Source: Paracoccaceae bacterium | GTDB taxonomy: Bacteria > Pseudomonadota > Alphaproteobacteria > Rhodobacterales > Rhodobacteraceae | NCBI GenBank assembly: GCA_020832445.1 | Contig: JAFIEO010000017.1 | Location: forward strand, 1-64,000 | Length of the DNA stretch: 64,000 nucleotides | Reading direction: 5' to 3' | In this document: positions 4,854 to 50,165 of the stretch, piece by piece | Layout: each line of letters starts with the position of its first letter | How positions within the stretch are numbered: position 1 is the stretch's first letter | Position numbers and translations under genes: made by a program | The notes under the pieces: generated by a model | What the model saw: only the letters and a program-made list of their open reading frames with translations | Databases searched by the model: none | What the model was told of the DNA's origin: nothing

Positions 4854-4888
4854 ACTTGCGGGCGTGTCAGGCAGGGCTGGTTGAGTCT

Positions 4889-5117
4889 GGCCTGAAGGGG
4901 ACGTTGCTGCCATGGACAAAGCCCGCGCCAGCGGTGGGCCGGGGTCTGCCGATCCGGCATTTGAGAGGCGCAGTTTATGCCAGCTGCATACCCCTTGCTT
5001 CAATGGCTTGGCGTGTCGCTGGCCAAATCGGCAGGCCGCGGGACGGCCCACCGATGGCGCGGCGGGCTGCGCCCTTTGCTCCGCGCCTTGGGGCATTCGC
5101 GATGTCTGCAAAAGGCC
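4889..5117 (+). repeat. Interspersed nested-palindrome repeat, copy A
   Basis: Shares an indel-free core with copies B-E; GCGCCAGCGGTGGGCC...GGCCCACCGATGGCGC arms; left end GGCCTGAAGGGGACGTT, right end GCAAAAGGCC. Confidence 0.92.
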
Positions 5118-5143
5118 ATGATTGGCCCCCATACAGGGACAAA

Positions 5144-19875: not shown

Positions 19876-19904
19876 GGTGCTGGAACTGATTTGAATTGCG
19901 GTAT

Positions 19905-20135
19905 TTGTCTTTCGACGGTCATTCGGGCATGAATAAAGCCCGCGCCATCGGTGGGCCGGGGTCTGCCGATCCGACATTTGAGATGTGCAGTTTATGCAGG
20001 CTGCATACTTCTGTGCGCAAGGGCTTGGCATACCATCAGCCAAATCGGCAGGCCGCGGGACGGCCAGACCTATGGCGCGGCGGGCTGCGCCCTTGATTCC
20101 GCGCATTTGGGCTTTCCCGATGTCTTCAAAAGGCC
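19905..20135 (+). repeat. Interspersed nested-palindrome repeat, copy B
   Basis: Core aligns to A, C, D, E without gaps; left end degenerate (TGTCTTTCGACGGTCATTCG, resembles E), right end CAAAAGGCC. Confidence 0.88.
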
Positions 20136-20165
20136 ATTCTCAACCAGCCTGACGGTCAACCAGCT

Positions 20166-31254: not shown

Positions 31255-31295
31255 GATCGTGCAACACGGCGAATAATGCTGCTTGGGGTGGGGTT

Positions 31296-31523
31296 GGCCT
31301 GAAGCAGTCATTGGGAATGCCCAAGGCGCGGAGCAAAGGCCGAAGGCCGCCGCGCCATCGGTGGGCCGTCCCGCGGCCTGCCGATTATTCTGATGGTGTC
31401 TCAAGCCTTTGATCTCAGTAGTATGCCGCCTGCATAAAGTGAACTTCACTGGCGTCGGATCGGCAGACCCCGGCCTACCGATGGCGCGGGCTTAATCCAA
31501 GCGGACAACGACAGCTTCAGGCC
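31296..31523 (-). repeat. Interspersed nested-palindrome repeat, copy C
   Basis: Reverse-orientation copy; terminal arms GGCCTGAAGC / GCTTCAGGCC perfectly complementary. Confidence 0.92.
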
Positions 31524-31547
31524 ATTGGTCCACCAGCTTTGTGGCAC

Positions 31548-41776: not shown

Positions 41777-42235
41777 ATGTCGCACCAGATGCCCGCCCCC
41801 GTCACGCGCCCGATTCCTGCTGTTCTGGCCGTCGTCATTCGTGACGATCAGGTGTTGTTGATCCAGCGCGCCAACCCGCCGGATGCGGGGCTGTGGGGGT
41901 TTCCCGGCGGCAAGCTGGAATTCGGGGAAACACTTCTGGCCGCAGCCGAACGGGAGTTATTTGAAGAAACGGGCGTCAGGGCTGTTGCCCGACGGGTGTT
42001 CACCGCGCTGGACGCCTATGACCGCACCGATGGCGGGGCAATCCGGCAGCATTTCGCCCTGATTGCCGTGCAGTGCGACTGGCGCGAGGGGGAACCCGTT
42101 GCCGCAGATGACGCGCTGGATGCGACTTGGATATCCCTCAAGGATATGGATGTCGCCCTTCCGCTTAGCCTTGATGTGGCCGCTGTTGCACGGCAGGCCG
42201 CCTTGACGGGCCGGAACGTCGCCGGATCAGGTTGA
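41777..42235 (+). CDS. NUDIX hydrolase
   Basis: GFPGGKLEFGETLLAAAERELFEETGVRA Nudix box. Confidence 0.95.
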   Translation: MSHQMPAPVTRPIPAVLAVVIRDDQVLLIQRANPPDAGLWGFPGGKLEFGETLLAAAERELFEETGVRAVARRVFTALDAYDRTDGGAIRQHFALIAVQCDWREGEPVAADDALDATWISLKDMDVALPLSLDVAAVARQAALTGRNVAGSG

Positions 42236-42256
42236 ACCATCCGCTGGGGCGGTGCT

Positions 42257-42484
42257 GGCCTTTTGCAGACATCGGAAAAGCCCCAAGGCGCGGAGCAAAG
42301 GGCGCAGCCCGCCGCGCCATCGGCGGGCCGTCCCGCGGCCTGCCGATTTGGCCAGCGAAACACCAAGCCTTTGAACGCAGGAGTATGCCGCCTGCATAAA
42401 GTGAACTTCACCAATGCCGGATCGGCAGACCCCGGCCCACCGCTGGCGCGGGCTTTGTCCAAGTGTGAAGGGCAGCAAAAGGCC
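42257..42484 (-). repeat. Interspersed nested-palindrome repeat, copy D
   Basis: Terminal arms GGCCTTTTGC / GCAAAAGGCC perfectly complementary; core as in A-E. Confidence 0.93.
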
Positions 42485-42540
42485 AAAACCACCCGCGACA
42501 GGAACGTTTCAAGCCGAAGCAGCCGACCCCTGCGCGCCGT

Positions 42541-44190
<1,650 letters not shown>

Positions 44191-49732: not shown

Positions 49733-49775
49733 GCGATGATCCTTTCGGATTGAACAGGCAAGGCCGGTCGGGGTT

Positions 49776-50001
49776 GGCCTTTTGCGGTCATTCGCGCTTG
49801 GATAGCCGCGCCATCGGTGGGCCGGGGTCTGACGATCCGGCGTTAGTGAAGTTCACTTTATGCAGGCGGCATACCCCTGACTTCAAGGGATTGAATCACC
49901 ATCAGCCAAATCGGCAGGCCGCGGGACGGCCAGACCTATGGCGTGGGCCACCTGCTGCCTTTGCTCCGCGCCTTGGGCGTCCCCAATGACAACAAAAGGC
50001 C
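49776..50001 (+). repeat. Interspersed nested-palindrome repeat, copy E
   Basis: Terminal arms GGCCTTTTGCGGTCATT / AATGACAACAAAAGGCC (15/17 complementary); core as in A-D. Confidence 0.92.
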
Positions 50002-50165
50002 AGCACATTCCCCAAACGGACCATTCCCCCACGACCTGATCGCGCAACTGGTCGGCGTGCCGGATGACTATTGGAAATATTATTGCGCCCTGCTGATGAA
50101 CGTGATTTGTTGTGCATGCGAATGCATGGAATACTGCGCCTCGCAATCTGGCAGATGGGGCGGAA

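Follow-up and report, generated by a model that had tools for sequence, protein, structure and literature searches.

A palindromic REP/CIR-like element of the Rhodobacteraceae whose copies turn over at fixed sites downstream of genes

Introduction

The repeat described here is best read as a 3'-end palindromic element, REP/CIR-like and of a new, family-wide kind, which is shuffled between fixed sites. It was first noticed, in five copies, in a 64,000-nt stretch of DNA from a Paracoccaceae bacterium (contig JAFIEO010000017.1 of GCA_020832445.1, positions 1 to 64,000; the window). The element lies some 50 bp past the stop codons of genes, in most cases where two genes converge. Across genera its core hairpin has kept its fold, and this fold acts on one strand specifically. 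At a fixed site another copy takes the place of the old one, turned the same way or the opposite way, and the boundaries of replacement fall at the terminal arms; the whole unit, from GGCC to GGCC, has been copied between sites. With a probability of roughly 0.6, it represents a non-autonomous, high-copy, intergenic palindromic element of the Rhodobacteraceae (in the GTDB sense) whose copies would be exchanged through their arms and which would serve as a two-way 3' end. The repeat family is large and, apparently, has not been described before; its host family is among the best studied of the marine and phototrophic ones.

Copies in the window and architecture of the element

All five copies claimed in the earlier note lie where it had placed them, within a few bases, and can be aligned end to end from GGCC arm to GGCC arm. 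They are as follows (neighbouring genes named by Pfam):

4889..5117, + strand: copy A, between convergent genes for CoA_binding_2 (+, ends 4853) and an EamA transporter (-, 3' end 5144)
19905..20135, + strand: copy B, between convergent genes for glutamine synthetase (+, ends 19826) and EPSP synthase (-, 3' end 20166)
31296..31523, - strand: copy C, 3' of a proteasome-type peptidase gene (+, ends 31254), which is convergent with the next gene
42257..42484, - strand: copy D, complete from one GGCC arm to the other, between convergent genes for a NUDIX hydrolase (+, ends 42235) and phosphoglucomutase (-, 3' end 42541)
49776..50001, + strand: copy E, 3' of accA (ends 49732), in tandem with DUF1800 (50112, +)

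Copies A to D are thus located between convergent genes, and copy E lies in tandem behind accA. The corresponding covariance-model spans, which are padded by about 4 nt, are ~4885-5121 (+), 19903-20139 (+), 31292-31527 (-), 42253-42488 (-) and 49772-50005 (+). The conserved unit is 224-231 nt long with GGCC at both ends; in its terminal inverted repeats GGCCTTTTGC...GCAAAAGGCC, its lack of coding capacity and its length of 226-231 bp, below about 500 bp, it resembles a MITE. As had been noted, the element carries no transposase; it is intergenic, with no gene inside it, and PF01797 is absent from the genome that contains the window (the home genome). The parts of copy D to which the text below refers are:

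42475..42484, - strand: left terminal arm GGCCTTTTGC (element orientation), a boundary of exchange and of recent copying
42257..42266, - strand: right terminal arm GCAAAAGGCC (element orientation), a boundary of exchange and of recent copying
42418..42453 (approximate limits), - strand: 5' side of the main stem, GCCCGCGCCAGCGGTGGGCCGGGGTCTGCCGATCCG, which pairs with the 3' side and covaries across genera
42311..42349 (approximate limits), - strand: 3' side of the main stem, AATCGGCAGGCCGCGGGACGGCCCGCCGATGGCGCGG, which pairs with the 5' side and covaries across genera
42285..42317 (approximate limits), - strand: second hairpin H2, GGCGCGG-CGGGCTGCGCCC-TTTGCT-CCGCGCC, whose 5' strand GGCGCGG also closes the main stem

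The landmarks and the nested, inverted layout proposed earlier are right, and the segment from GATCCG to AATCGG, which had been aligned by hand, has 0 indels across the five window copies. Other details are revised. The internal GTGAA-G-TTCAC hairpin is found in C, D and E only, with A and B reading GAGAGGCGCAG / GAGATGTGCAG, so this segment is counted as variable. The TATGC-N5-GCATA hairpin is a feature at the level of the genus; other genera retain CTTTAT, without that hairpin. The outer terminal arms do form an inverted repeat, but one with little covariation between copies (z 2.2 in the home genome and 0.4 in the sister genome G033), and their pairing is not claimed as constrained. Finally, two features had been overlooked: the H2 hairpin, which competes with the main stem through its outer strand, and the position of the element where genes converge. 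Outside the GGCC arms, a weakly shared outer flank, GGCCAGAATCAACCAGCCTTGC... / GATCAGGTTGAA..., is seen on both sides of many copies (in the window, for example, at 42224-42256), which suggests a longer, decayed inverted repeat.

Copy number and taxonomic spread

The home genome is a 4.08-Mb draft in 99 contigs, in which the 17-mer CCGGGGNCTGCCGATCC (at most 1 mismatch) has 111 matches as against 1 for its reversed control; together with the covariance-model count, this excludes chance. The covariance model, built from 32 copies, returns 142 rows at E<=1e-3. Because about 17 of these are reverse-strand shadows of the palindrome, there are approximately 120 copies or fragments, more than 100 of them full length. 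A genome-wide search thus takes the repeat beyond the five copies first noticed, with its structure conserved. (Contigs C15, C25, C67, C68, C3, C74, C95 and others of this draft (G000) end within an element copy, which indicates that the assembly breaks at the element.)

Within the genus, whose nearest named relatives are Roseinatronobacter sp. S2 (by plasmid similarity) and Natronohydrobacter thiooxidans (by the PGM protein), 26 of 37 genomes match, with counts per genome that range from 0 to at least 59. In the family as a whole, matches at E<=1e-5 under strict filters are present in 60 of 199 genomes (59 of 198 genera). A model built from 38 genera finds 94, 133 and at least 150 matches in single genomes and none in another; in a class-wide sample of 296 alphaproteobacterial genomes it matched only members of the same family, with 0 matches in other alphaproteobacterial families. 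Plasmid matches include Salipiger and Pseudosulfitobacter, and the element is unannotated in the public plasmid records examined; phage and near-plasmid matches were uninformative beyond naming Roseinatronobacter, Salipiger and Pseudosulfitobacter.

The earlier note recognised no named family in the repeat, and the searches agree with it. At the gathering threshold Rfam has nothing in the window except one tRNA, at E<=1 it has nothing over the element around five copies from other genera, and no account of such an element in the Rhodobacterales was found in the open literature. Near one copy of the element, in a related genus, there is a SorX match (RF02784, 66.7 bits, above its gathering threshold) at L251:3788-3862 (-).

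A conserved fold with two competing helices

Evidence for the fold comes from an alignment of one core copy per genus from 38 genera, made with MAFFT without structural guidance. In the main stem, 95.4% of cells are paired, and changes on both sides are seen in 21 of the 34 pairs. Double-change cells number 134 versus 35.8 in shuffles, a ratio that is indicative, since cells count sequences rather than events; 0 of 500 shuffles reach 134. Slid controls of this stem give 8-10 pairs, and when the partner is moved by 1-3 columns pairing is 32-52%. Downstream of the main stem, H2 takes the form GGCGCGG-GGCC-loop-GGCC-CCGCGCC; it is 97.8% paired, with double changes in 4 of 7 pairs (again in the 38 genera). 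Because the main stem is closed by the 5' strand of H2, the two helices are mutually exclusive. This 7-nt strand covaries with its two alternative partners, such that main stem and H2 are both kept by compensatory changes, and in L259, L263, L265, L306 and L308 the three strands have changed together. Examples of such three-strand sets are CCGCCCC/GGGGCGG/CCGCCCC (L265), CCGGGCC/GGCCCGG/CCGGGCC (L263, L307) and CCGTGCC/GGCACGG/CCGTGCC (L306).

The cells that depart from Watson-Crick pairing are strongly asymmetric. There are 65 G-U cells versus 8 A-C cells across genera (17 versus 4 distinct pairs) and 62 versus 15 within two sister genomes, ratios that are likewise indicative. Given such an excess of G-U, the constraint acts on one single strand, either RNA or ssDNA. 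Copy D folds as RNA at -122.3 kcal/mol (z -4.5 versus shuffles), and its DNA fold has a z of -4.3. Two unpaired motifs, CTTTAT and AAATCG, are also conserved across genera. GATTC is present in the H2 hairpin in 22 of the 38 distant genera but in only about 25% of copies in the home genus (copy B of the window among them); since most copies of this genus are without it, this is read as loss of the site in the genus. The density of GANTC is 3.9/kb in the element versus 1.0/kb around it. H2 is also present with no core beside it at about seven intergenic sites in G033 C1 (1394230, 1655393, 1728358, 1827703, 1891052, 2257672 and 2745627), nearly all between convergent genes; these are either deletion derivatives or an ancestral short form.

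Placement relative to genes

The clearest view of placement is given by G033, in which 68 copies (1.6 Mb of the closed chromosome) are distributed as 51 convergent, 14 tandem and 3 divergent, an excess of convergent sites with a binomial p of ~2e-21 against 21%. (Genes were called by a simple codon-usage script, and these orientation calls are approximate.) The copies typically lie ~50 bp from stop codons. When intergenic gaps of at least 150 bp are considered, a copy is present in 50 of 103 convergent gaps versus 3 of 107 divergent gaps. The folded element is therefore found in about one in two of the long gaps between convergent genes of this genome, which bears on transcription termination and on the annotation of terminators in the Rhodobacteraceae. 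The home genome has 41 convergent, 10 tandem and 0 divergent copies; the preference is weaker in distant genera, with 15, 18 and 4, respectively.

At tandem sites, a bias in orientation with respect to the upstream gene was considered and rejected, because the co/anti ratio of 3:11 in G033 was not reproduced in the home genome (5:5) or in distant genera (7:11). Similarly, the numbers on the leading and lagging strands in G033 (~27 versus 41) do not differ significantly. At copy D, no intrinsic terminator (a GC hairpin followed by a U-tract) was found on either strand within 42150-42600. A second palindromic repeat of ~43 bp, TTAGAGCAT...CATTCAC...ATGCTCTAA, adjoins some elements and is also seen elsewhere in G033; its sites are L009:1698-1741, L006:1766-1808, L003:1385-1427 and L039:1670-1712, together with the G033 pieces L105, L130, L139, L160 and L163, and it is absent from the window.

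Turnover of occupants between sister genomes

Insight into how the copies behave comes from mapping the flanks of 56 home-genome copies to G033. (It should be kept in mind that the home genome is a draft, in which misassembly is possible at some sites; G033 is near-complete.) Among 28 scorable sites, which were drawn from the best-scoring or first-listed copies and which have the element in both genomes and flanks that are ~95% identical, 10 have an inverted occupant and 18 have one in the same orientation. A check based on the position of H2 agrees at 9 of the 10 inverted sites, and it conflicts with the HMM strand call at 3 of the 28 overall. Inversion in place can be rejected for the flipped sites: after re-orientation the elements have a mean identity of 0.85, as random pairs do, and identity in their variable segments is that of the null. 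Thus, at these 10 sites the old copy has been replaced by a different one. The 18 same-orientation sites are bimodal, some being 97-99% identical and others random-level or mosaic, and the latter add roughly 7 replacements to the 10 inverted ones. In the frame of the site, identity drops 5-20 nt inside the terminal arms.

Each of these outcomes can be seen in the window. Copies B and C are kept in G033 (98% and 97% identical, respectively), and the occupant at copy A is inverted there. The site of copy D has a G033 occupant in the same orientation with a largely different sequence, and its G001 occupant is inverted. The site of copy E is filled in G033, in G001 (in the opposite orientation) and, with a weak score, behind accA in G034. 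At 3 of 31 scorable G033 sites there is no full element, but a deletion derivative or stub remains, and neither a clean empty site nor a target duplication was found in G033 or around the copies confined to G001. Within the home genome, L010 and L015, a recent pair, have a core identity of 97.5%; their match begins and ends exactly at GGCC, and their flanks are unrelated. Partial tracts are seen as well: L059 retains its core with new arms, and L022 and L032 have the core in common and the arms not. The sister species offer a natural experiment, in which the same sites have had their occupant swapped or inverted and the flanks are still 95% identical.

How copies may move between sites

Taken together, the stability of the sites and the turnover of their occupants argue for exchange between copies. 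Copies would be traded by ectopic recombination or by copying via the inverted terminal arms, either through gene conversion or through template switching at a stalled hairpin, and passage through inverted arms would allow either orientation. The near-equal orientations suggest that the inverted arms, rather than full homology, set the register; they are equally compatible with orientation-blind insertion into old copies. Indeed, an in-register form of gene conversion is expected to favour the same orientation, yet inverted and same-orientation replacements are about equal. Exchange is moderately preferred over insertion because of the partial tracts and because there are no clean new or empty sites.

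The corresponding insertion model is active MITE-like transposition, driven in trans by a transposase or recombinase, in which new copies would home, whichever way round, to a 3'-end target that is often an old copy, and gene conversion would play no part. Orientation-indifferent insertion would give the observed 10 inverted versus roughly 7 same-orientation replacements, and the exact GGCC-to-GGCC unit that recent copies have in common, the patchy copy number within one genus and the retention of a strand-specific fold across genera, as in ssDNA elements recognised by HUH enzymes, all fit such a process. It is nonetheless unlikely, given the exchange of partial tracts, the remnants left at G033 sites in place of clean empty sites or target duplications, and the want of a gene inside the element. 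A RAYT/IS200 partner (Y1_Tnp, PF01797) was sought and rejected: it is absent from the home genome, and 9 of 10 high-copy relatives have none above the cut-off, the search yielding one relative above it and a sub-threshold fragment in G033. No autonomous partner with the same ends was found among the transposase families searched.

A family of structured ncRNA genes acting in trans or in cis (for example, with main stem and H2 as a terminator/antiterminator-like switch) and amplified because it is useful would account for the deep covariation, including the three-strand alternative pairing, and for the G-U bias and the conserved unpaired motifs. This is quite improbable for an element whose orientation relative to flanking genes is unconstrained and flips between sister species, which has at copy D neither a promoter-like nor a U-tract site, which is missing altogether from many genomes of the same genus, and whose copies are reduced to stubs without obvious site loss. 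Lastly, the fold could be a by-product of symmetry in a DNA-level site for protein binding, methylation or supercoiling. E. coli BIMEs bind gyrase and IHF, Caulobacter CIRs carry a CcrM GANTC site, and positive supercoils accumulate in convergent gaps; the local density of GANTC and the GATTC of distant genera fit a role of this kind. The scarcity of GATTC in the home genus and a G-U/A-C asymmetry that is unexpected for a double-stranded site make it very improbable indeed.

Under the preferred reading of exchange between fixed 3'-end sites, the role for the host would be that of a REP/BIME-like two-way 3' end, placing a large hairpin in whichever mRNA enters and so blocking read-through or protecting the 3' end. 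Placement is what points to this role, under which long convergent gaps would keep a copy and divergent (promoter) gaps would not. Against it, copy D lacks a U-tract terminator, the tandem copies leave it doubtful that the upstream gene transcribes the conserved strand, and convergent placement, which is weaker in distant genera, can alternatively arise from selection against insertion elsewhere. That the strand of the fold is independent of which way the upstream gene runs suggests a role for the fold in copying, or in an RNA intermediate, more than in the mRNA that carries it; the strand-specific fold would then be what a copying machinery or an RNA sees. A broader proposal is possible but doubtful, namely that the element typifies a family-wide class of non-autonomous elements unrelated to RAYT/REP. 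Some machinery of the host or of a mobile element would recognise the folded + strand (RNA or ssDNA), with its two competing helices, and would repeatedly swap the occupants of fixed 3'-end sites either way.

The options first offered for the repeat fare differently. A 3' element and a structured single strand are both supported, by placement and by covariation, and the non-autonomous option stands in the sense that copies duplicate between sites and carry no gene. Three things lay beyond what the window alone could show: the element is family-wide and not a local repeat, its fold is kept by covariation, and the occupants of its fixed sites are swapped or turned between sister species. Swapped occupants within fixed flanks, in a genome without RAYTs, make the question of whether REP-like elements spread and homogenise through gene conversion or through transposition directly testable.

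Relation to known systems

RIME (Rhizobium intergenic mosaic elements) and ERIC (enterobacterial repetitive intergenic consensus) are imperfect palindromes of ~100-250 bp that are intergenic, need no gene of their own and are MITE-like. The element has no homology to either within the reach of the searches. The copy number of ERIC varies widely (PMC10969869). Br-REP1 and Br-REP2 of Bradyrhizobium are multi-palindrome repeats in the overlapping 3' UTRs of convergent genes, with both strands transcribed, and have been described from Bradyrhizobium, Rhodopseudomonas and relatives (PMC5082802). Like Br-REP1, the present element is alphaproteobacterial and lies 3' of convergent genes; unlike the Br-REPs, it does not contain their published consensus (CCGGAATCTCGAGATTCCGG etc.), and its host family differs.

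The CcrM-associated intergenic repeats (CIRs) of Caulobacter described by Chen and Shapiro are reportedly more than 100 bp long and organised as inverted repeats, with a CcrM (GANTC) site in one repeat, and are said to reach ~21 copies. The resemblance lies in a long alphaproteobacterial intergenic inverted repeat and, in part, in the GATTC of H2 (22 of 38 other genera, about 25% of copies in the home genus). The element differs in its ~120 copies in the home genome and in the loss of GATTC from most copies of the home genus, and the 38-genus model matched no other family among the 296 alphaproteobacterial genomes. The original account of the CIRs (Chen & Shapiro 2003, J Bacteriol 185:4997) is drawn on here as cited in PMC10969869 and PMC1273637.

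There is also a likeness to REP/BIME/REPIN sequences of enterobacteria and pseudomonads, which are present as hundreds of intergenic palindromes 3' of genes, mainly in convergent or unidirectional contexts (PMC3116915, PMC3733652, PMC8266576), and whose stems show G-T pairing and compensatory changes (PMC3733652, PMC3116915). For REPs, gene conversion was proposed by Higgins in 1988, as cited in PMC3733652. The element has in common with them a high copy number (~120), an extragenic, 3'-intergenic position, a palindromic structure, G-T pairing and compensatory changes. It differs in having no RAYT/TnpA-REP in the home genome, in a length of ~230 nt with GGCC ends as opposed to a 20-40 nt unit, and in that no GTAG/CGTC tag was noted at the foot of the hairpin. 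It differs further in having two exclusive helices that share one strand, and occupants that are exchanged and inverted at fixed sites.
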